A stretch of DNA of 64,000 nucleotides from Sphingomonas sediminicola (GTDB lineage: Bacteria; Pseudomonadota; Alphaproteobacteria; Sphingomonadales; Sphingomonadaceae), in NCBI RefSeq assembly GCF_014489515.1, contig NZ_CP060782.1, positions 1,488,001 to 1,552,000 of the forward strand, in the 5' to 3' direction. How positions within the stretch are numbered: the stretch's first letter is position 1; each line of letters starts with the position of its first letter. Made by a program: the position numbers and the translations under genes. The notes under the pieces were generated by a model. It was given only the letters and a program-made list of their open reading frames with translations, made no database searches and had not been told where the DNA came from. Of the stretch, positions 23,032-43,492 are shown piece after piece.

Positions 23032-23663
23032 CTAAGGCAGGCCGATCAGTTTGTGCGACTGCAATGAAAGGCGCCATTTGGGGCGATCCATCACCAGTCG
23101 GATCGCCGCATCGAGCGCCTGTTCGCGCGCCTCGCAATCCATCGGTTGAATGAGGAAGTTGGCGAAGTTCCAGCTTTCGAATTCCGCCGGATCCACGCCC
23201 TCCTGGGGCCAGACCAGCTTCAACTCATCGCCGCTGCGCTGAACGACATCGGTCCCGGCCTTCGGGCTGATGCACAGCCAGTCGATGCCCTCGACGGCGG
23301 GCAGCGTTCCATTGCTTTCGACGGCAATTCGGAAGCCGCGATCGTGCAGGGCGTCGATGAGGGCCGGGTCGAGCTGGAGCATCGGTTCGCCGCCGGTGAT
23401 CACCACCAGCCGCGCCCCTTCCTCCGCACCCCATGTGGCCAGCGCCCGCTCCGCCAGCGAATCGGCGTCGGCGAACTTGCCGCCCCCTCACCGTCCGTGC
23501 CGACGAAATCCGTGTCGCAGAAATGGCATGGGGCCGTCGCGCGATCCTGCTCGCGACCCGACCACAGATTGCACCCGGCGAACCGCAGAAAGACTGCCCG
23601 ACTGCCCGATTGGACCCCCTCGCCCTGGAGGGTGAGGAAGCATTCCTTGACTGCGTACGCCAT
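23032..23663 (-). CDS. queE: 7-carboxy-7-deazaguanine synthase, one frameshift
   Basis: Radical-SAM enzyme that makes the 7-deazaguanine core of queuosine. ATG 23663 gives MAYAVKECFLTLQGEGVQSG and FLRFAGCNLWSG; the cluster cysteines are in GC...APCHFC with the C-x14-C-x2-C spacing of QueE. From about 23485 the frame shifts to KFADADSLAERALATWG and VVITGGEPMLQLDPALIDAL. One extra G in the GGGGG run joins both parts (about 210 residues). The start shares one base with the queC stop (TGATG). Confidence 0.9.
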
Positions 23664-24977: not shown

Positions 24978-25879
24978 TCAGGACACATCTTCCAACGTGA
25001 TCGGGAAGCTCTGCGAGCAAAACGCGCAGTCCACCGTGATGAACCCGTCCGGCCCGACCATCGCTTCGCGCTCCTCTTCCGGGAAGCGCGCGATCACTGA
25101 ACGCACATAGTCCGGATCGCACCGGCAGCCCTTTCGCAGGTGCACGGGCGTGTAGGTGCGGACCTCGGCCTCCTCGTGGAACAGCCGCCAGATGAGGTCG
25201 TCGAGAGGAAGATCGGGATCGACCAGTTCCCCTCCTTCACCGAACCGGCGAGAATCGCGACGTGCGGCCAGTCCGGATGGTCGAGCTGCGTGTGGATTCG
25301 CTCGCGCCCCTCCTCGCCTTCCGGCAGGTGCTGGAAGAGGATTCCACCGGCAATCCACTTCCCATCGTGCTTCTCGGCGTTGAGCCTCACCAGGCTCGGA
25401 ATCTGCTCCGACTGGGCGAAGTAGCTCTGCGCCGCGTGAGCCAGGCTGTCGCCCTCGAGCGGCACGATACCCTGGTAACGCTCGTTGCTGAGCGGCTGGT
25501 CGAACGTGATTGCGAGATAGCCCTTCCCGAACAGGGCAAATAGCGACGGATTCGGGCCCGCGTCGGCAAGCCGCTCCGGGTCGTGTCGGACGTACCCGCG
25601 AAGCTCTCCACCGAGATAATCGCAGACCAGAAGGTCGATTGCGCCATTCTCCGTTTGCGCCTGGAGCGTCATCTGTCCCTGCGGATCCTTCAACAGGGTA
25701 CCGAGCAGCGCGGTCAGCGTCAGCGCCTCGGCAAGCAGTCGCTCGACGACCGGCGGATAATTGTGGTTGGCCAGAATCTCATCGAGCACAGGCCCGATGC
25801 GCGCAGCGCGGCCACGGGCGTCACGCGCCGGGATCGTGACGCCGATCGCGACGTCAAGGGACAGTTTTTCTGCGGGCAT
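24978..25879 (-). CDS. hslO: Redox-regulated chaperone Hsp33, one frameshift
   Basis: Holdase chaperone activated by oxidation. The main fold runs from ATG 25879 (MPAEKLSLDVAIGVTIPARD) through NHNYPPVVERLLAEAL and GKGYLAITFD. From about 25232 the C-terminal zinc region is in another frame, beginning GELVDPDLPLDDLIWRLFHE. One extra G in the GGGG run joins them (about 300 residues). The zinc cysteines are GCRCDPDYV and CAFC, the CxC...CxxC switch. It lies 39 bases after argD on the same strand. Confidence 0.93.
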
Positions 25880-30017: not shown

Positions 30018-32722
30018 CTAGCGCGCGTCCGCGAGGGCGCGCTCTTGAGCTTTCAGGAAAGTTCGAAGCGCCGCGCGTGCTGCCGGCCATCCCTTGTCGT
30101 GCTCGAGAGGGATGTGGTTTTCGGAATCGATCATCACCAGCTCCGATTTCCGGATCTGCGCTGCCAGCGTCTCGGAGCAGCTTGGCGGGATGATCCGGTC
30201 CCCGCGGCTGTGCATGATCAAGGTCGGCGCCTCGATCTTCGCCAGTAGGGGTCGCAGGTCGATGGTCCTGAAGACGTCCTGCAATTGCTCGCTCAGCACG
30301 CTGATCGTTCCGAGGCGGTCCACGAACCAGTCCATCATCTCGTTGCTCGCGTCGGGCCAGTAGAGCGCGCCGAGCATACGAGCGAACGAAACCCGGTCGC
30401 TCGGCGCATAGCCGCGACCGAGATTGAGCAGGGTCTCACGCCGCTGGATCTCCTCGGGATCAGCCCGTACTCCGAAGCCTTCGGCATAGCCCCCGACCAG
30501 GACCATCCTCCGGACCCGCTCCGGAAAGCGCGCTGCGAATGCGATCGCGACGAGAACGCCATGGGACATCCCGAAGATGTCGAACGTCTCCAACTCCGCG
30601 TCGTCCACGACGGCGATGAAGTCCTCAAGTAGCGACTCGAAGTCCCAGCGCTGCGGATCCGGGTCCGACAGGCCGACGCCGCGCATATCCGACCGGATCA
30701 GGCGCCGCCCGCGCAACGCCTCTTCCATCCAGTGGCTCCAGGTCGGAGCAGCAAAGTCCTTCTCAACCTGATGAAACCAGACCGCGGGCATGGCCATGGG
30801 GAAGCCATCGCCCACGCTGGACCATGCGATCTTCGCGCCATCCGAGGAAGTGCAGACCTCATTCTGCTCCGCCGTCTTCGCCTCCGCGATCACGGCATCG
30901 CTCCCCTCGCCCTCGGACTTCAGGAACTGCCGAGCGTGCTTCACGAACTCGTGCCACCCTGGCTCCTTCTCCAGAAGGAGGTGATTCTCGCCGTCGATCG
31001 GGATGAAGGTCGCGCCCGGGATGTGCTGGGCCAAATATTCGCCTGCGGTGAACGGCACGACCTGGTCGTCCCGCGAATGGAAGATCAGGGTCGGGACCGT
31101 GACTTTCGGCAATAGGTCGCGGACGTCGATCAGCGACAGCGCACGCTGCAGCTTCACAGCATTCTCCGGCGAGCAGCTGACCCGCTGCATCTCGTTCCAC
31201 CACTTGATCTGCTCCGGCGTACCTTCCGGAATGTAGAGGCTCGTGAAGACCTGACGGTAGGTCGGGTGGTCCGAGCCCCAGCCGACCTCCGTCAGCTTGA
31301 GTAGCGCCTCGCGCCGGGCGATCTCCCCGGGATCACCGCGCGCCGCCCACCCTGCCGAATAGCCGCCGAGAATCAGCAGCCGGCGCACCTTCTCCGGATG
31401 GCGGACCGCATAGGCGATCGCCACGGCGGCGCCCTGGCTGATGGCAAGCAGGTCGAAGCTTTCGAGGCCGGTCGTCTCGACCACGCATTCGAGGTCGTCG
31501 ACGAAGGCGTCAAAAGAGATTTCCGGCGTATCCCAGTCGGACAGGCCGTTCGCGCGCTCATCGTAGCGGATCAAAGTATGGCCGCGCGTGAACTCGTGGA
31601 GCCAGTGCTTCCAGACCGGGCTCTTCCAATCATGCTCGAGGTGATTGAGCCAGTTGGCCGCTTTCACCAGCGGCGGCCCCTCGCCCATCACCGAATAGGC
31701 CAGGCGGGTGCCATCTTTGGCCATCGCATGACGGACGAGCTGCTTCGGAAGGCCAATGCGCTGGGCCTCGCCGCGCGACTTCGCGTCTTCCTCAAACTGG
31801 CGGCGCCAGGTCGCTGGAGGCACTCCGTATTCGCGCTTGAAGGCACGGGTGAACGCGGCTTCCGAATTGAAGCCGACTGAATAGGCCACGTTCGATGCGT
31901 TCTGCTTGCCGTCCCGAAGCATGTTCGCGGCCATGCGCATCCGCCACCGCGCGCAGTAACGCATTGGAGGCTCGCCGATCAGCTCGGCGAACTTCTCGCC
32001 CAGGACGGTTCGCGAAACGCCCGCCTCGCGCGCGAGGCTTTCGACATCAAGGTCCTCGGCGTAGCGGCTGTGGATAATCGACAGCGCCTTGGTCACTGCC
32101 GGGTCCGTCAGTCCGCGAAGCCAGCCGCTCGCGCCGAACGGCAGGTGATCGACATATTCCCGGACGGCCTGCGTCAGGAATAGCTCGGCAAGTTTCGCCA
32201 CGACTTCCGAAGATGGTTTCTGCTCGGCCAGGAAGCGCATCGACGTGTCGAGCCATTCGGCCTCCCCCCAACGATCTTTAGGGTCAGGAGCGGTGGAAGA
32301 GCATCGAGAAGGGGATGGTCGCTGCTGTTCGCGGCCTCGAGGAAGCCGCACCACACTTCGGCCTTCGCACCGTCGGTCCCGGTCGAGACCCGGTGGACCC
32401 CATCGGCCGTAATCTTGCTAATTTCGTTCGCGTCCGTCGGGGGAAGGCCGGCCCTGCTCGCCAACCTATGAGGTTCATTTCGCGGAATGATGGCGACGGA
32501 GCCCGCTTCAAGTGTCACCGGAGCCATGCCCTCGACTTCGACGATCAGCTTGCCCGAGCGAACATAGTGATAGCTGATGAGCTTGTCGGGCACCGGGAAG
32601 AAGGGCTCGAAATGCCCGGGGGTGAACTCGGCGGCGACGCAAAAGTCTCCACTGAACTCCCCGTCGACGACCACGCCCCCTCTGAGGCGAAGCGAGCTCA
32701 GGATATCGTCCAGAACGTCCAT
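30018..32722 (-). CDS. AraC-type regulator (cupin + HTH) fused to two alpha/beta-hydrolase domains, one frameshift
   Basis: A composite protein of about 900 residues once one base is added in the GGGGGG run near 32270. Order: N-terminal cupin_6-type sensor domain (1-150; MDVLDDILSSLRLRGGVVVD, AGSVAIIPRNEPHRL); AraC HTH pair (about 207-308; DVESLAREAGVSRTVLGEKF and VAYSVGFNSEAAFTRAFKRE); alpha/beta-hydrolase 1 (about 335-605; nucleophile AISQG, acid HSRDDQ, His in GENHLL); hydrolase 2 (about 625-895; GMSHG, HSRGDR, SENHIPL). Both triads look intact. Cytoplasmic by inference. ATG 32722 follows GGAG. Divergent from the AurF-like operon, which it may regulate. I know alpha/beta hydrolases of this type fused to other DNA-binding domains, but a duplicated copy on an AraC regulator seems unusual. 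Confidence 0.85.
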
Positions 32723-32736
32723 CGATAGCTCCGCGG

Positions 32737-32750
32737 CGCATACGTATGCG
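32737..32750. promoter_or_regulatory. Perfect 14-base palindrome upstream of the AraC-hydrolase gene
   Basis: CGCATACGTATGCG is self-complementary over all 14 bases and ends 15 bases upstream of ATG 32722. Its position at the regulator's own start suggests an autoregulatory operator (inference). Confidence 0.45.
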
Positions 32751-32845
32751 GCGTTTCAGTCAAGTTATCCGGCAAGCCGGTCATGTTTGCAAACGAGTCG
32801 CAAGTGTAGAGACCGCATCATCGAGTTGAAAGCCCGTCCAGTTGG

Positions 32846-32908: not shown

Positions 32909-33025
32909 ATGCCAAGTATTGAAAGGGATATACGTGCGCGAAGAGCAGTGGTGCTCTTCTTCGCCGTTGTTTCCGGGGTCTCTGCAGTTGCGACTGCGGT
33001 GATGCCCGCGATTGTACACGCTTAA
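32909..33025 (+). CDS. 38-residue membrane or secreted peptide
   Basis: Short frame from ATG 32909, preceded by AAGGGGAT, to TAA 33025. It encodes a basic N-terminus (ERDIRARRA) followed by one hydrophobic stretch (VVLFFAVVSGVSAVATAVM) and ends AIVHA, so it looks like a single-pass membrane peptide or a bare signal peptide. It stops 19 bases before the AurF-like gene and is probably co-transcribed. Could be a leader peptide; function unknown. Confidence 0.5.
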   Translation: MPSIERDIRARRAVVLFFAVVSGVSAVATAVMPAIVHA

Positions 33026-33044
33026 GTCAAACCAAGGGAATATC

Positions 33045-33949
33045 ATGTATCACGACTTCAACTATGAAGCGACGCTCTCATCGTCGCTTAGGGCCCAGTG
33101 GCAGCTCGACGACGTCCTTCGGGAAGACCAGGAGCTGGATTTCAGCCGTAACTTCATGCCGGAGAGCCTGGCTCGCACCGGCGCGATCAGCAGCCTGAAT
33201 GCTTTCGAGCAAAAGGTCCTGAACCAGATCTCGGCCCACCAGTATCTGACGATCTTCGGGGTGGTCGAGGAATTCATCCTTCCGTTCCTGCTCGATCATG
33301 CTCGTCCGCACTTGCTCAACGACGACTGGCGCGTCCGCGCGATCCTCAACTTCGCGAGCGAGGAAGCGAAGCACATCCACCTGTTCAAGCGCTATCATGC
33401 GGCGTTCGCACGGGGCTTCCCGGTCGAATGCGAAATGATCGGTCCGTCCGAGGCGATCGGCGCGGAAGTGCTCCGCCACGACCCGCTCGCGGTCGGTCTC
33501 GTCATTCTGATGATCGAGTGGATGACCCAGCAGCACTACCTGGGCAGCATCAAGGACGATGGCGACATCGACCCGCTGTTCAAGAGCCTGATGAAGAATC
33601 ACTGGGTCGAAGAAGCCCAGCACGCGAAGCTCGACACCCTGATCGTCGACGCTCTTGCGGAAGGCCGTACCGAGGAGGAGATCGACGCCGCAATCGACGA
33701 GTTCTTCGAGATCGGGGGTTCCTCGACAACGGACTGAAAGCCCAGGCCGCCTACAATCTAGACGCGCTCGAGAAGGTGATCGGCCGCAAGCTCGAGGACC
33801 GCGCGGAGATTGAGGAGCAGCAGCACCAGGCCGCACGCTGGACCTACATCGGTTCCGGCATGGTCCACGAGCGCTTCAAGGCGACGCTTCTGAACATCTC
33901 GGCGAACGCCGCGGCCCGCATGGCGGAAGCCGCTCCCGTCTTCGCCTGA
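33045..33949 (+). CDS. AurF-like di-iron N-oxygenase family protein, one frameshift
   Basis: Ferritin-like di-iron protein, about 301 residues after adding one G in the GGGGG run near 33717. Ligand spacing matches p-aminobenzoate N-oxygenase AurF (PF11583): Glu75/76 (GVVEEF), Glu107-x2-His110 (ASEEAKH), Glu158 (IEWM), His186-x3-Glu190-x2-His193 (NHWVEEAQH). C-terminal part (NGLKAQAAYNLDALEKVIGR to AAPVFA) is in the second frame. AAGGGA precedes ATG 33045. Followed by osmC-like and methyltransferase genes. It may oxidise an amine or another small molecule; the substrate cannot be read from sequence. Confidence 0.75.
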
Positions 33950-33976
33950 ACCCGATGAACCCAAAGGAGAATGTGA

Positions 33977-34540
33977 ATGTTGGACACCGTAAAGAATGCG
34001 CCCGTGAACGGGCTCGACCTCGAAGCCCTCGGCGAAGTCGTCGAAGCGATCGAGAAGGACTCGTCAAAGGGCATCGTCGGCTTTGACGTCGTCACCCGCT
34101 GGAAAGGCCAGACGCGCAGCGAGACGACCGTGACCGGCTTCGACATCGGCGGCGAGCGCGTCGAGCGCAGCCACAAGATCGTTGCCGACGAGCCGTACGA
34201 GCTGCTCGGCGCCGACACCGCCCCGAACCCGCAGGAACTGCTGATGGCGGCGTTCAATGCCTGCATCACCGTTGGTTACGTCGCCGGTGCGTCGCTCAAG
34301 GGAATCACGCTGGAATCGCTCGAGATCCGCACCAAGGGTCAACTCGACCTGCGCGGCTTCCTCGGCCTCAGCGACGCGGTGCCCCCGGGCTACGAGCACG
34401 TCGACTACGAAGTCGTCATCAAGGGTGACGGATCGGCCGCGGATTTCGAGGAGATCCACCAGACGGTCATGAAGACGTCGCCCAACTACTTCAACATGAG
34501 CCGTCCGATCAAATTGAACGGAACGCTCAGCGTCGGCTGA
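33977..34540 (+). CDS. OsmC-family protein
   Basis: A 187-residue OsmC/Ohr-fold protein. The peroxidatic-type Cys lies in MAAFNACITVGYVAGA, at the start of the central helix, after GADTAPNPQELL. The second conserved Cys of true OsmC/Ohr peroxidases appears to be absent (the region reads SPNYFNMSRP), so peroxidase activity is uncertain. ATG 33977 follows AAAGGAGAATGTGA. It lies 27 bases after the AurF-like gene and 56 before the methyltransferase, clearly one cluster. Confidence 0.85.
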   Translation: MLDTVKNAPVNGLDLEALGEVVEAIEKDSSKGIVGFDVVTRWKGQTRSETTVTGFDIGGERVERSHKIVADEPYELLGADTAPNPQELLMAAFNACITVGYVAGASLKGITLESLEIRTKGQLDLRGFLGLSDAVPPGYEHVDYEVVIKGDGSAADFEEIHQTVMKTSPNYFNMSRPIKLNGTLSVG

Positions 34541-34596
34541 CGCACGATACGGCGCCGCGTCTCCGGGCGCGGCGCCACTCAATAAGGGGTGTGAGA

Positions 34597-35430
34597 ATGT
34601 CAGACCTGGTTATCGATAAGATCAATCCGAACAAGGCCCTTTGGGAAAAGGGCGACTTCACCCGCATCGCCGACACGATGCGGCAGAGCGGCGAGGAGCT
34701 CGTGAGCACGCTCGGCATCACGCCGAGCATGAACGTGCTGGACCTCGGCTGCGGCGACGGAACGACCGCCCTTCCGGCCGCGAAGCTCGGCGCAACCGTC
34801 ACCGGCGTCGACATTGCGGCCAACCTCGTTGCTGCAGGCAATAAGCGCGCTGCCTCGGCCGGCCTCACCAACCTTCACTTCCGCGAAGGCGATGCGTCGA
34901 ACCTCGAGGGCATCGATTCCGACAAGTACGACCTGGTCGTCAGCATCTTCGGTGCGATGTTCGCCCCTCGGCCGTTCGACGTGGCCAAGGAGATGGTCCG
35001 CGTCACCAAGCCCGGCGGCCGCATCGTCATGGGCAACTGGATCCCCGGCGACCCGACGCTCGTCGCTCAGATCCTGAAGATCAGCGCCGCCTACACTCCA
35101 CCCCCGCCCGAGGGCTTCGTTTCGCCGATGACCTGGGGCGACGAAAACCAGGTCCGCGAGCGCTTTGAGACCGCAGGAATCAAGCCGGAGAACGTCGGTT
35201 TCGAGCGGGTGACATGGCTCTTCCGTCTGCCGGGACCGCCGCGCGAGCTGCTGGCGACCTTCCGCGACTATTACGGTCCGACCATGAACGCCTTCGAAGC
35301 GGCCTCGAAGGCTGGCCGAGCCGATCAGCTGGAGGCCGAGCTCATGGCCCTGTTCGAGTCCCAGAACCGCGGCGGCGACAGCACGGAAGTGCCCGCCACC
35401 TTCCTCAAAGTCACAGCAAAGAAAGGCTGA
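34597..35430 (+). CDS. Class I SAM-dependent methyltransferase
   Basis: A 277-residue methyltransferase with the motif I loop VLDLGCGDGTTALP, acidic motif II GATVTGVDIA, DLVVSIFGAMFAPRP and a post-II segment VTKPGGRIVMGNW (UbiE/Methyltransf_11 style). ATG 34597 with AGGGGTG seven bases upstream is preferred to GTG 34591. Third enzyme of the AurF-like cluster. The C-terminal third (residues 185-277) has FRDYYGPTMNAFEAA, seen in sphingomonad-type relatives; the methyl acceptor is unknown. Confidence 0.85.
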   Translation: MSDLVIDKINPNKALWEKGDFTRIADTMRQSGEELVSTLGITPSMNVLDLGCGDGTTALPAAKLGATVTGVDIAANLVAAGNKRAASAGLTNLHFREGDASNLEGIDSDKYDLVVSIFGAMFAPRPFDVAKEMVRVTKPGGRIVMGNWIPGDPTLVAQILKISAAYTPPPPEGFVSPMTWGDENQVRERFETAGIKPENVGFERVTWLFRLPGPPRELLATFRDYYGPTMNAFEAASKAGRADQLEAELMALFESQNRGGDSTEVPATFLKVTAKKG

Positions 35431-35452
35431 GCGCTCGCGCCCGGGAAACTCC

Positions 35453-35863
35453 ATGCTCCACGCACTCATCGAACGCACGAACCGCCAGTTCCTCGATCGG
35501 CCCAACCGACGCCACGAGCGGCATCGTATTTCACCGCGCCCGCGCACTTCGCCGTCGCTGCCGCATTCCTCGGCCGCGAGCCGGTTCGCGGAGACCTGCG
35601 CCGGGATCGGCGGAACAACGATGCTTCACGACCTGATGCCGGACATCGTCACCGTTACCTTCGGCGCCAGGACCAAGGAGATCCACGCCCGGCTCAAATC
35701 GCGCGGGTGGAAATCCGTCGGTCTCGGTGATTGGCAGGGCGAGCGCGTGCTGGGCGTCTCATTCGGCGGTGATCGCCGGGCGAACTGCACCGCCGACGAT
35801 CTGGTCGAAGCGTTGATTACCGTGGTCGGCGAGATGGAGATCGCCGAGACCCGGATCTGGTAA
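35453..35863 (+). CDS. Hypothetical protein at the end of the AurF-like cluster
   Basis: A 136-residue product with no family I recognise. The N-terminal 50 residues are Arg/His/Pro/Ser-rich and low in complexity; the C-terminal part (VTVTFGARTKEIHARLKSRG, GDWQGERVLGVSFGGD, LVEALITVVGEMEIAE) looks like a compact alpha/beta domain. Starts 22 bases after the methyltransferase and is followed by a strong terminator. A missing base in the N-terminal half could hide a different sequence; an internal ATG at 35621 (MLHDLMPD) is an alternative start. Confidence 0.5.
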   Translation: MLHALIERTNRQFLDRPNRRHERHRISPRPRTSPSLPHSSAASRFAETCAGIGGTTMLHDLMPDIVTVTFGARTKEIHARLKSRGWKSVGLGDWQGERVLGVSFGGDRRANCTADDLVEALITVVGEMEIAETRIW

Positions 35864-35911
35864 CTCCCCGCGTCGGCTCTCCCCTCGACACCCCCCGCCG
35901 ACGCAAAAAGG

Positions 35912-35952
35912 AAGGCCCCGGAGCGCGATCACGCTCCGGGGCCTTTTCTTTT
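35912..35952 (+). terminator. Strong intrinsic terminator ending the AurF-like cluster
   Basis: Perfect 14-base arms AAGGCCCCGGAGCG/CGCTCCGGGGCCTT with a CGATCA loop, then TTCTTTT. The opposite strand also has a T-rich end (CTTTTTGCG), so it may act for hsp20 as well. Confidence 0.93.
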
Positions 35953-35967
35953 CGCTAAGCCAATGCC

Positions 35968-36477
35968 TTACGCGTGCTCAGCCTCGGCATCCACTGTCTG
36001 CTTCGAAGCAGGCTTCTCACCGCCCTCGATTGCAGACTGCTTGCCCTCGGCACCGCCGATGTCGATCTTCCGCGGCTTCATCGCCTCGGGGATCTCACGC
36101 ACCAGCTCGATTGCTAGCAGGCCGTCCTTCAGGTCCGCACCGCGCACCTGGATATGGTCGGCGAGCGCGAAACGCCGCTCGAACGAGCGCGTCGCAATCC
36201 CGCGATACACATAGTCCTGGCCGCGGTTCTCCGACTCCTCGCTCTTCTTGCCGCTGACGAGCAGCACGTTCTGCTGGGCAGTGATGTCGATCTCTTCGGG
36301 CTTGAAGCCAGCGACGGCCAGCTCGATGCGATACTCGTTGTCGCCAAGCTTGATCAGGTCGAACGGGGGATAGTTCTCCTGGGTCTGGCTGGCGCTGCTG
36401 TTCTCGAGCATGTCAAACAGCCGGTCGAAGCCGACGGTGGAACGCCGGAACGGCGCAAAGTCGAAAGCACTACGCAT
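35968..36477 (-). CDS. Small heat-shock protein Hsp20 (IbpA-like)
   Basis: Alpha-crystallin-domain holdase of 169 residues. N-terminus MRSAFDFAPFRRSTVGFDRL is typical of IbpA-like proteins; the alpha-crystallin domain spans about 40-130 (YRIELAVAGFKPEEID, LLVSGKK, YRGIATRSFERRFALAD, LKDGLLAIELVREIPE); the C-terminal tail is long and acidic/Ala-rich, with RKIDIGG in place of a classic IxI. GGAGGACAAG precedes ATG 36477. It is a typical sigma32-dependent gene, but I did not find a clear heat-shock promoter. Confidence 0.92.
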   Translation of the reverse strand: MRSAFDFAPFRRSTVGFDRLFDMLENSSASQTQENYPPFDLIKLGDNEYRIELAVAGFKPEEIDITAQQNVLLVSGKKSEESENRGQDYVYRGIATRSFERRFALADHIQVRGADLKDGLLAIELVREIPEAMKPRKIDIGGAEGKQSAIEGGEKPASKQTVDAEAEHA

Positions 36478-36661
36478 GTCTTGTCCTCCAATTTGAGCAA
36501 CAAGGCGGGCTTGGGCATGAGGCCTCGGCCCCGTCACCGGACCCGTGTGGCGCCCGGCACAGTGGATTTGGAAACGCCCTTTCCAATTTCAAGCCTGTGG
36601 AAAACACCTAGTCGCAAGCTTGGCACGGCTTGAATCCGCGCCCTATAGCTGTTCCCACATC

Positions 36662-38655
36662 ATGGCAGACCTGTTCGCTTCCCCCGCCGCTGCGCCCTCA
36701 CCTGAAAGCTACGACGCTTCCTCGATCGAGGTCCTTGAGGGCCTGGAGCCCGTCCGCCGCCGCCCCGGCATGTACATCGGCGGCACCGACGCCCGGGCGC
36801 TCCACCACCTCGCCGCCGAGGTCATCGACAATGCGATGGACGAGGCGGTCGCCGGTCACGCCAGCCGCATCGAGGTCACGCTCGAGCCGGGCAACCGCCT
36901 GACCGTCTTCGACAACGGCCGCGGCATTCCCGTCGACCCGCACCCGAAGTATCCGGGCAAGTCCGCGCTCGAGGTCATCATGACCACCCTCCACTCGGGC
37001 GGTAAGTTCGAGGGCAAGGCGTACAGCACCTCCGGCGGCCTCCACGGCGTCGGCGTCAGCGTCGTCAACGCGCTCTCGACCGAGACGATCATCGAGGTTG
37101 CCCGAGACAAGAAACTCTACCGCCAGGCCTTCTCCAGGGGCGTCGCCACCTCCCCGCTCGCAGAGGTCGGCGCTGCCCCAACAGGCGCGGCACCACCGTC
37201 ACCTTCACCCCCGACCCGGAGATCTTCGGCGCCGAGTCCAACTTCGACCCCGGCCGCCTCCTCCGCCTCGTCCGCTCCAAGGCCTATCTCTTCGCGGGCG
37301 TCGAGATCCGCTGGCGCTGCGACCCGTCGCTCGCCTCCGCCGACGTCCCCGAAAGCGCTACCTTCCAGTTCCCCGGCGGCCTCGCCGACAGTCTCGCGCA
37401 GCAGATCGGCGACCGCCCCGCCGTCACCAACCAGCCCTTCGTCGGCAAGCAGGACTTCCCCGCAGCCGACGGCGCGTCGCAGGGCAGCGCCGAATGGGCG
37501 GTCGCCTGGCCGCTCTATTCGGACGGCTCCGAAAGCTATTACTGCAACACCATCCCCACGCCCGACGGCGGCACGCACGAAGCGGGCCTTCGCGCCGCTT
37601 TGACTAAGGGCCTGCGCGCCTTCGGAGAGCTGGTCGGCAACAAGAAGGCGAAGGAGATTACAGCCGACGACGTCTTCAACGGCGTCGAGCTGATGCTGTC
37701 GGTGTTCATCCGCAACCCGCACTTCCAGAGCCAGACCAAGGACCGCCTCACCAGCCTCGAGGCCGCGCGTTTCGTCGAGAATGCGGTCCGCGACCATTTC
37801 GACCATTACCTCGCCGACAATATGGACCGCGGCCGCGCTCTTCTCGGCTCGATCCTCGAGCGGATGGAGGAGCGCCTCCGCCGCCGCGCAGAGCGCGAGG
37901 TCAAACGCAAGACCGCGACCAGCGCCCGCAAGCTCCGCCTCCCCGGCAAGCTCACCGACTGCTCGTCCGACGATCCCGAAGGCACCGAATTGTTTATCGT
38001 CGAAGGCGACAGCGCCGGCGGCTCGGCTAAGCAGGCGCGCGACCGCAAGACGCAGGCGATCCTCCCCATCCGCGGCAAGATCCTCAACGTCGCCAGCGCT
38101 ACCGCCGACAAGATCCGCGCCAATACGGAAATCGCCGACCTCAACCTCGCTCTGGGCTGCGGCAACCGCGACAAGTTCGACGAGGATTCGCTGCGCTACG
38201 AAAAGATCATCATCATGACCGACGCGGACGTAGACGGCGCCCACATCGCGACCTTGCTGATGACCTTCTTCTTCCAGGAAATGCCGGAGCTGGTCCGCCG
38301 CGGCCACCTCTTTCTCGCCCAGCCGCCGCTCTACCGCCTGACCGCCGGAGCGAAGACGCTTTACGCCCGCGACGACGCCCACCGCGCCGAGCTCGAAGCG
38401 ACCGAGTTCAAGGGCAAGAAGGTCGAGGTCAGCCGCTTCAAGGGCCTCGGCGAGATGAACCCGAACCAGCTCAAGGAAACCACCATGGACCCGAAGACGC
38501 GGTCCATGCTGAAGGTGACGCTCCCGTCAGCCTATGAGGATCGGCAGCCGGTCAAGGACCTGGTCGAACGCCTGATGGGCAAGGACCCGGCGGAACGCTT
38601 CAAGTTCATCCAGTCGCGAGCGAGCGCGGTGGATGAAGAGGAGATTGATGCTTAG
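36662..38655 (+). CDS. parE: DNA topoisomerase IV subunit B, one frameshift
   Basis: ATPase subunit of topoisomerase IV, which decatenates daughter chromosomes. GHKL features: EVIDNAMDEAVAG, DNGRGIPVDPHP, STSGGLHGVGVSVVNALS; TOPRIM features: EGDSAGGSAKQARDR, TDADVDGAHI. RANTEIADLNLALGCG favours ParE over GyrB. After GVATSPLAEVGAAP the frame breaks near 37175 and resumes RRGTTVTFTPDPEIFGAESN; one extra C in CCCC gives PNRRGTTV. About 664 residues. ATG 36662 starts MADLFASPAA. Confidence 0.95.
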
Positions 38656-41403: not shown

Positions 41404-43492
41404 TCAGCCTGCTTGCGAGGAGTCGCCGCTGAGATAGTTCGGTCGCATGACCTTCGCGCCTTTCGGCAAGGGAGCCGCGGCGACCTGGAGAAGCTTGAGG
41501 TCGAACTTTTCGGCGAACTGCACACCGAACTGCGTACCCTTCGCCCACACGATCTTTCCGGCGATTACGCCGCCGGCGCCGAAATCGAGCCCGATGTCCG
41601 TACCGACCTCGACCTCGTCGCGGCACTCGACCAGGGCGCCTCCGCTGGAGATGTTTCGCAGTCGCGCGCCCTTCACTCGACCATGATAGTGAAGCAATGC
41701 CGCGCGAATGATGCGGATGCGCGGTTCGCGCTGGATCAGATGGGCATCCGGTCGGGTAGCAGCGCCTTTCGCCGCAAGCTCCGCAGCCTCTTCAGCCGGC
41801 ATCGGCTTGCCGAAATAATAGCCCTGGATGAGCGAGCAGCCGAGATTGCGGATCAGCATCAACTCTTCCTGCGTCTCGACGCCTTCGGCCGTCGTCTCCA
41901 TTTGCAGGTCGGCCGCGAGGCCCACCATCGCTTTGATCAGCGCCGCGTTCCGGCTTTCGGGCCCGAGGCACCGCGAACGAAGGACTGGTCGATCTTGATC
42001 TTGTCGAACGGAACCCGAAGCAAATAGCTGAGCGACGAATAGCCCGTGCCGAAGTCGTCCAGCGCGAGCTTCACGCCGATCTTCTTCAGATTGTGGATCA
42101 TCTCATGGACGTGCTCGTCGTTGCTTAGGAACACGCCTTCGGTGATCTCGAGCTCCAGCCGTTTCGCGGCCAACCCGGTCTCGTTGAGCACCGCCCGCAC
42201 AGTCGAGGGAAGCGACGGCAGCTTGAATTGGACGGGGACATGTTCACCGCGACCGAAACCTGTGGCGGCCAGTTCGTAGCCTCAGCGCAGGCGGTCCGAA
42301 GCACCCATTCGCCGATCTCGTTGATGAGCCCGATTTCCTCAGCAAGCGGGATGAACAGCGCCGGACTAACCGCTCCATGCTCGGGGTGGTCCCAGCGGAT
42401 CAGGGCCTCGAACCCGGTCACCTTCTCGCTCGATGCATCGACGCTGGGCTGGAAGACGACCCTCAGTTGGCCTTTCTCGAGTGCGACGCGCAGGTCGGAT
42501 TCCATCCGCTGCCGCTCGCGGGCCGTTTCGTGCATCTCCGGCGCGAAGAAGCGGAAACATCCCTTGCCCGCGGCCTTGGCTGCGTACAGTGCAAGGTCGG
42601 CGTCGCGCATCAAATCGTCGGACGTGCGGTCGTCATAGTCGGATGTGACGATCCCGACCGACGCGCCGATCGAAACCGCGGTCCCGTTGATCGTATACGG
42701 GCGCGAGAGGCTGTCGATGATCCCCTGGGCGAGCCGCGACAGGTCTTCCTTGGACGACGTGGATGGAAGCACCACCTCGAACTCGTCGCCGCCGAGTCGG
42801 CCGACCTGCCCAAACTTGCCGATGACGTCGCGAAGCCGGAGCGACACAAGCCGGAGCAGGGTGTCGCCCGCAGGATGGCCCAGCGTATCGTTCACCGCCT
42901 TGAACCGGTCGAGGTCGAGCAGGAAGACGGAGCAACGGTGCTTGCGGCGGGCCGCTCCGACCAGCGCATCGTCCAGCGCCCGGCGCAGCGCTTCACGGTT
43001 CGCGAGTCCAGTCAGCGAATCCTGCCGGGCGAGCCGATCGAGCTCGACTTCCGATTGCCGAACCTTGGTCAGGTCGGATGCAAAGCCGCGGTAGCCGAAG
43101 AAGCGTCCGACCTCGTCGTGGACGGGTCGGCCGGAAATCGACCACCAAATCTCATTCTTCGTTTTCGCCCGGACGATGAGGTCCTGGAACGCCACGTGTG
43201 ACAGGAGGTAGAAGCCGAGGCTCCTTTCGGAGGTCGCGCTTCCGTCCGCGGTTTCCGTCGAGATCAGATCTGTGAAAGGCCGATCGATCAGCTCGGCGGG
43301 CTCCCGGCCGAGAGCAGTGGCAACGCTGTCGCTGATGTAGGACAGAGTACCCTCGCGGCCGGTCTCCCAGAACCAGCCTTTCTCGCTACTTTCGAATTCC
43401 TGGATCAGCCCTTCTGCCCGTGAGTTCGACGGACGCGACTCTTCATGCGAAGAGCTGCTCCCCGTCCTCAACAGGTTTCTAATGCTCGCCAC
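41404..43492 (-). CDS. PAS-GGDEF-EAL-PilZ cyclic-di-GMP protein, two frameshifts
   Basis: Cyclic-di-GMP enzyme of about 697 residues after two single-base additions (near 42228 and 41950). PAS domain (30-145), GGDEF domain with intact RLGGDEFEVVLPS, EAL domain with GFEALIRWDHPEHG, DDFGTGYSSLSYL and TTAEGVETQEEL, then a C-terminal PilZ domain (IRAALLHYHGRVKGARLRNI, SSGGALVEC). Both active-site signatures look complete, so synthesis, hydrolysis or both are possible, with PilZ as product sensor. GTG 43492 start; the nearby ATG 43496 is out of frame. The TIR protein gene lies 68 bases downstream. Confidence 0.88.

Follow-up and report, generated by a model that had tools for sequence, protein, structure and literature searches.

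The window analysed here, a stretch of 64,000 nucleotides from Sphingomonas sediminicola (part of a one-contig genome of 2.76 Mb, 90.6% complete), carries a recurrent and apparently uncharacterised sense-and-oxidise gene group. We read it as a stand-alone, ligand-induced oxidative processing module, and put the prospects of that reading at about even. Its members are a gene for an AurF-like, ferritin-type diiron protein, a co-directional gene for a one-cysteine OsmC-family protein, a gene for a small, probably membrane-spanning protein ahead of these two, and a divergent regulator gene in which an alpha/beta-hydrolase is joined to DNA-binding domains. The gene set, its linkage, the ligand and catalytic residues, an operator-like site and the variety of the DNA-binding domains can all be read directly in the sequences compared. 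The initial annotation had singled out four open reading frames (ORFs), at 33045, 33977, 34597 and 35453, as a possible small-molecule cluster. All four are present as described, co-directional, and the genes are real, but the core of the module is narrower than these four, and it reaches beyond them to the regulator, the operator-like site and the microprotein. Overlooked at that stage were the 38-codon gene at 32909-33025 and the breaks in the reading frames of the AurF-like and regulator genes.

The linkage of OsmC to the AurF-like gene is far above chance. It was followed in 62 loci of relatives, all picked for their AurF-like gene, with several genomes supplying two loci each; one locus (L122), a C-terminal fragment, was dropped, leaving 61. 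A co-directional OsmC gene lies beside the AurF-like gene in 36 of the 61, downstream in 33 and upstream in three (24/28 loci from the family and 12/33 others). The chance expectation of such adjacency is about 0.0017 per locus, with three OsmC-family genes in 2.76 Mb; the 61 loci are related, and are not independent events. A hydrolase of the same family as that in the regulator is found no more than 3.5 kb upstream in 31/61 loci (22 of the 28 from the family, nine of the 33 others), a divergent AraC domain in 26/61, and either OsmC or the hydrolase in 44/61. Conservation of the gene order, which had been suggested as a check on the original cluster, holds for the OsmC gene and the regulator; the methyltransferase gene at 34597, with a co-directional downstream counterpart in 9/61 loci, and the small fourth gene at 35453 are accessory.

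The AurF-like protein itself is patchily distributed. It was found in 19/71 genomes of the genus, 9/199 of the family, 25/385 of the class (one of them a fragment) and 7/398 of the phylum, each count including the window's genome and the samples partly overlapping; the genus figure is what would be expected of an accessory function. Named close relatives include Sphingomonas daechungensis, S. hankyongi and S. alba. A tree of the 61 rows falls into two well-supported halves, one of 40 rows that holds the window's relatives and Nostoc, the other of 21 more distant rows. In Novosphingobium US6-1, OsmC lies immediately downstream and a Cupin_6-AraC gene is divergent. Plasmids carry matches as well, in ten records from Caballeronia, Novosphingobium, Cupriavidus, Nostoc and Paraburkholderia, four of which are among the loci analysed. 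On one of these, from Nostoc carneum (L063, 6248-7903), OsmC is directly upstream of the AurF-like gene.

The protein encoded at 33045 is best named AurF-like, and not an AurF N-oxygenase. The first 230 codons, which include every predicted iron ligand, occupy 33045-33737 on the plus strand, and the C-terminal part lies in a shifted frame at 33716-33949 on the same strand (the tblastn alignments of intact relatives switch frame at 33716-33719, and the profile match covers positions 225-301). The Pfam AurF profile PF11583 matches the 33045 ORF at 38.9 bits, against a cut-off of 29.6, and three intact relatives at 35.2-39.4 bits; the Nostoc copy (22.0 bits) and another relative (G103, 27.2 bits) fall below the cut-off. 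In the hidden Markov model search that had been proposed as a check, PF11583 was the best Pfam match. We rejected a PF11583 match by itself as proof of N-oxygenation: the profile has matches in 26/299 Pseudomonadota genomes, over the cut-off in 13/299, and several of the matching proteins resemble other ferritin-type families by eye.

E75, E76, E106, E107, H110, E158, H186, E189, E190 and H193 are invariant across all 28 rows when intact relatives, whose identity to the first row is 54-84%, are aligned. Profile-profile comparison (hhalign) with seven PF11583 proteins gave a probability of 91.5 and an E value of 8.5e-7; the lead protein of that seven-row alignment matches solved AurF (2.3e-25) and 5HYG (1.9e-32), which we take to be CmlI, by phmmer. 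E75, E107, H110, H186, E190 and H193 align there with six of the seven AurF-type ligand residues, including the glutamate of the first helix and the extra histidine. The AurF counterpart of the seventh ligand is E196, a glutamate of the third helix; E158, the candidate for this role, is among the invariant residues, yet it falls one residue away from the AurF-type glutamate in the profile alignment. The initial annotation had described a residue-by-residue agreement with AurF. The residues that it named and the spacings E107-H110 and H186-E190-H193 stand, but "residue by residue" is a slight overstatement, in view of the position of E158 and of its distance to H186. PMC9478400 gives the ligands of DnfA, a diiron N-oxygenase like AurF and CmlI, as Glu88, Glu123, His126, Glu182, His209, Glu213 and His216; the predicted ligands of the AurF-like protein are of the same types and in the same order, E, ExxH, E, HxxxExxH, with E158 as the candidate for the lone glutamate between the two motifs. 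The spacings within ExxH and HxxxExxH are equal, whereas those between the groups are similar only, at 35, 56 and 27 in DnfA (PMC9478400) and 31, 48 and 28 here, the last being E158 to H186.

The second shell sets the protein apart. Glutamate stands at both positions next to the ligands, giving EExxH and HxxEExxH, in 59/62 AurF-like rows (EESKH and HWLEEAQH in the Nostoc copy); the exceptions are L119 with Glu/Asp, L124 with Asp/Asp and the L122 fragment, which lacks the motifs. In AurF, by contrast, aspartates (D135 and D226) precede the second and sixth ligands (PMC12101540), a pair in whose place 59 of the 62 rows have Glu/Glu. The CylC and NocO dimetal halogenases are distant, AurF-like proteins of the ferritin type with three histidines; the same text gives the CylC-type motifs as QExxH and HxxDExxH, with Gln and Asp next to the ligands where the AurF-like protein, the Nostoc copy included, has Glu and Glu (PMC12101540). 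The CylC glutamine at the first motif position occurs in 0/62 rows. A C-terminal block (A263, R265, T267, G270, S271, G272, H275 and F278) is invariant in 28/28 relatives and is not covered by the Pfam match (in three relatives, the match stops at residue 198-213). NCBIfam assigned the protein to no family, and neither phmmer nor a profile reached solved AurF in the PDB up to an E value of 10; we regarded the PDB matches that did appear, to alphaRep repeats, R2-type proteins and unrelated ones, as due to chance or as similarity at the level of the superfamily. The AurF-like proteins appear to form a distinct subfamily marked by EExxH and HxxEExxH, for which N-oxygenation is possible.

The neighbouring OsmC-family protein (33977-34540, plus strand; PF02566 56.4 bits, cut-off 27.5) had been described as having one cysteine, and the relatives agree. 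OsmC and Ohr peroxidases work by a two-cysteine cycle. Cys96 is present in 37/37 OsmC rows, the window included, and Ser168 takes the usual place of the second cysteine in all of them; the second reactive cysteine of the peroxidases is found in 0/37. The other two OsmC-family proteins of the window's genome have two cysteines in the usual motifs (by eye). The sole solved relative at an E value of 0.001 is PDB 2OPL (88.5 bits, E 4e-24), which is deposited as a hypothetical protein and, like the OsmC protein of the window, has the first cysteine and a Ser-Pro at the usual site of the second.

How would such a module be controlled? The divergent, hydrolase-bearing regulator that had been proposed is borne out by matches to Abhydrolase_1, HTH_18 and Cupin_6. 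Its C-terminal part lies on the minus strand at 30018-32354 and comprises an AraC-type helix-turn-helix (HTH) at about 31797-32036 (HTH_18 71.3 bits) and two alpha/beta-hydrolase domains at about 30900-31757 and 30045-30869 (Abhydrolase_1 122.9 bits). The N-terminal Cupin_6 part (32174-32722, minus strand, 91.2 bits) is in another frame in the window; it is in the HTH frame in L042 and L046, where the single-frame fusions run to 905 and 896 residues, respectively. Cupin_6, an AraC HTH and one or two hydrolases occur together in the window and in 14 family loci, with HTH and hydrolase in one frame in 13 of those 14. Two tandem hydrolase domains follow the AraC domain in the window and in L040, L042, L045, L046 and L047; the other AraC-type regulators have one.

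Elsewhere the same hydrolase family is joined to other DNA-binding domains. It is fused to Trans_reg_C in L017, L100, L102, L106 and L116, and to a BTAD-type activator in L109 by Pfam, whose N-terminus is resembled by those of L014, L015, L016 and L053-L056 (blastp, E at most 3.3e-44, 37-44% identity over 210-250 residues). In L065 and L066 it carries a C-terminal GerE/LuxR domain. In L125, a divergent protein of about 811 residues lies upstream, with an N-terminus that resembles an OmpR-type DNA-binding domain by eye and no hydrolase detected. Among 40 aligned hydrolase rows, which include the window and a few nearby hydrolases not belonging to the regulator, the catalytic triad is kept as Ser in 37, Asp in 37 and His in 38. 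Mapped on the 61-row tree, the six regulator labels need 17 changes, far under the shuffled mean of 32.7 (0/200 shuffles as low), so inheritance accounts for part of the pattern; each of the labels AraC_Hyd, BTAD_Hyd and TRC_Hyd nevertheless requires four or more changes on well-supported branches, and the Trans_reg_C label clusters no more strongly than in shuffles. (In this scoring L066 and L102 counted as "none" despite their fusions, and L124 as AraC_Hyd despite a separate hydrolase gene.) A hydrolase that stays constant while its DNA-binding partner changes, together with a single conserved operator-like site, suggests a role as ligand sensor for the hydrolase part of the regulator.

That site is a conserved stretch of 45 bp at 32749-32793 (no strand assigned), with half-sites CAGTCA and CGGTCA 21 bp apart, and was recognised in 13 aligned upstream regions, those of the window and of 12 relatives, the 13 being a choice out of 29. 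Searched with up to three mismatches, the 45-bp pattern gave one match per genome in 9/9 genomes, always at this locus, and a reversed control gave none in the nine. Since the pattern was built from the upstream regions of these nine genomes, themselves selected as carriers of the module, the search speaks to the uniqueness of the site and not to its presence; more diverged sites would escape it. The stretch is a putative operator. A TA pair just downstream, invariant in 13/13 rows, may be part of a -10 element; a generic sigma-70 scan found no promoter. In sharing Cupin_6 and HTH_18 domains and two half-sites 21 bp apart, the system resembles known AraC/Cupin_6 regulators, from which it differs in adding one or two C-terminal hydrolase domains.

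Between the site and the AurF-like gene lies the 38-codon gene (32909-33025, plus strand), apparently the first of the operon, whose product is hydrophobic and probably a single-span microprotein. A small ORF of 28-60 codons occupies this position in 25/29 loci (the window and 28 others), and 24 of the 25 are strongly hydrophobic (18-residue hydropathy above 1.6, which 4.5% of shuffles reach), L052 being the exception. Non-synonymous divergence (dN) is below synonymous divergence (dS) in 9/9 pairs compared, over 36-38 codons each; for the window and L040 the values are 0.17 and 1.44.

What might these genes do together? The hydrolase of the regulator would act as a receptor that binds, and perhaps slowly cleaves, an ester- or lactone-like small molecule, as RsbQ and D14 do. 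The fusion protein would then activate the facing promoter through the conserved double half-site, and the promoter would give rise to the membrane microprotein, the AurF-related diiron oxygenase and the one-cysteine OsmC protein. The oxygenase would oxidise the inducer or a compound accompanying it, and the single thiol of the OsmC protein would reduce or trap a peroxide or electrophile from the reaction. In several species of the group only, the methyltransferase would cap the product. Sensing, activation, oxygenase activity, the role of OsmC and the order of the steps are what we infer from sequence; that the hydrolase changes the activity of its partner in response to a ligand would follow from its fusion to DNA-binding domains only. 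The first hydrolase domain does match RsbQ (2.8e-14) and the strigolactone receptor D14 (1.4e-11) among solved structures, with which it shares a fold family by sequence and the Ser-Asp-His triad. In the module, by contrast, the hydrolase is one part of a fusion whose DNA-binding domain comes in four kinds, and it stands beside an AurF-like gene.

Several observations weigh against this scheme. Neither OsmC nor the hydrolase is nearby in 17/61 loci, and in 11/61 the divergent AraC domain is lacking as well, so the AurF-like enzyme can occur in their absence. A divergent Cupin_6-AraC gene has no detected hydrolase in nine rows, the hydrolase is a separate gene in L124, the hydrolase and HTH parts are in separate frames in L040, and no fusion of a hydrolase to a DNA-binding domain could be shown in L112. 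Among solved structures, the regulator's hydrolase comes closest to an uncharacterised hydrolase (3.3e-22), followed by arylesterases (from 2.1e-16), all ahead of RsbQ and D14; because of this ranking, the regulator's hydrolase may be an ordinary esterase. An AlphaFold model of an intact relative, built from a six-row alignment, reached a predicted local distance difference test score (pLDDT) of 42 and was unusable for a fold search.

Alternatively, the genes could form a biosynthetic cluster. The enzyme would N-oxygenate an amine (or halogenate or hydroxylate a carbon, in the manner of CylC-type relatives), the methyltransferase would modify the result, and the product would be a signal with the hydrolase regulator as its receptor. 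The invariance of the AurF-type ligands favours this, as does a metal-binding mode of three histidines and four carboxylates that is, according to PMC12101540, largely specific to N-oxygenases among ferritin-like oxygenases. The methyltransferase gene is adjacent, and an amino-acid adenylation gene is found about 3 kb from the Nostoc copy, on the far side of two transposases. However, no synthetase, carrier or transporter emerged as recurring near the AurF-like loci in a scan limited to the window's genes, a few profiles and inspection by eye, the methyltransferase is present in a small minority of loci, and the second-shell residues are unlike those of both AurF and CylC; we think this explanation unlikely. 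The nitrogen-containing substrate envisaged in the initial annotation is not established. Beyond the ligand set nothing specific to N-oxygenases was found: sequence searches of the PDB miss AurF, the second-shell acids differ, and the three-histidine relatives include halogenases (PMC12101540). AurF, CmlI and DnfA also have partner genes unlike those of the module. The lack of an evident recurrent synthetase, carrier or transporter in that limited scan would speak for the processing of a compound that comes from outside or is made by the host, and against a complete biosynthetic pathway; we judge it more likely that a small molecule is detoxified or inactivated than that one is synthesised.

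A module against oxidative stress is a quite unlikely alternative. The AurF-like protein would scavenge iron or peroxide, OsmC would remove organic hydroperoxides, and the regulator would sense oxidised lipids or reactive chlorine. Membership of the OsmC family fits, and NCBIfam's model of the chlorine sensor RclR is weakly matched by both parts of the Cupin_6-AraC half (16.2 and 57.2 bits against a cut-off of 400). Yet the second cysteine of the Ohr/OsmC cycle is missing from every OsmC row, the extra histidine ligand is AurF-like and not ferritin-like, and we know of no alpha/beta-hydrolase that acts as a redox sensor. That the genes are mere chance neighbours or a decaying remnant, as the broken frames of the AurF-like gene and the regulator might suggest, is most improbable and already largely refuted by the OsmC linkage, by the intact AurF-like gene in 28/28 relatives' loci, and by the similar breakage of parE and other genes of the window, for which assembly error is the simpler account.

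The frame breaks themselves follow a common pattern. The AurF-like frame opened at 33045 stops at 33737, with the break at about 33716-33720 and the last 75 residues or so in another frame to 33949; all ligand residues named in the initial annotation lie upstream of it. In the relatives the gene is uninterrupted and encodes 300-304 residues, in one case 314. The regulator is broken between its cupin and HTH parts at 32264-32315 (two frames), and parE is split in the same manner near 37183 (37174-37189). Further genes of the window are split at 23478-23484, 25214-25229 and 41952-42236, each being a single frame in at least one relative. Because parE is essential and is broken along with the others, errors of assembly explain the breaks most simply; a biological frameshift in the AurF-like gene was rejected for the same reason, and the L040 assembly shows comparable breaks in its own regulator and parE. 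The assembly of the window seems prone to insertions and deletions, and its other broken genes would call for caution.

The remaining features lie downstream of the OsmC gene. The methyltransferase proposed for 34597-35430 (plus strand) is a class I, S-adenosylmethionine-dependent enzyme by its match to Pfam Methyltransf_11 (71.7 bits). In L041 and L060, where no OsmC was found, a methyltransferase gene comes right after the AurF-like gene, in what looks like the place of the OsmC gene. NCBIfam matches of the OsmC protein and the regulator are all below the cut-offs, and so are those of the methyltransferase among the 25 of 67 matches listed. The small hypothetical protein at 35453-35863 (plus strand) has a sub-threshold match to DUF6356 (16.9 against 24.4 bits) and was rejected as a core member, tblastn finding it in 2/28 loci (74% over 136 residues in L040 and 59% over 132 in L046). 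The perfect 14-base-stem terminator reported at 35912 is there: an intrinsic terminator at 35910-35947 (no strand assigned; 16 pairs scored) includes 14 perfect pairs at 35912-35945, and sits between the operon and a convergent HSP20 gene (35968-36537, PF00011 73.5 bits). The scanned stretch has four terminator-like sites against a shuffle mean of 3.6, which is no excess.

The regulatory setting of the module was not found described in the literature searched. Nothing was found that joins AurF to OsmC, or a hydrolase to OsmC, AraC and a diiron protein, nor anything on OsmC with ferritin-like and AraC proteins in Sphingomonas or that speaks of a diiron N-oxygenase as "AurF-like"; most subscription papers were outside the search, and this silence is weak evidence. 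A further proposal is tentative, and in our estimate somewhat more apt to fail than to hold: that the regulators could represent a new class of one-component sensors, in which a hydrolase is combined with swappable AraC, OmpR-type, BTAD or LuxR domains, paired with a new AurF-like subfamily, a one-cysteine OsmC protein and a membrane microprotein in a complete system to sense and oxidise what is possibly a lactone-type signal.

AurF-like enzymes carry out rare chemistry, making nitro groups or, from hydroxylamine, N2, and the related CylC line chlorinates C-H bonds. An enzyme of this kind with what appears to be its own sensor and a single operator would therefore have an inducer that is a strong clue to its substrate and that a straightforward screen with a reporter could identify. 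The little-studied one-cysteine OsmC proteins, for their part, gain a recurrent partner, and the fusions suggest that alpha/beta-hydrolases are able to act as swappable sensor domains of bacterial transcription factors.

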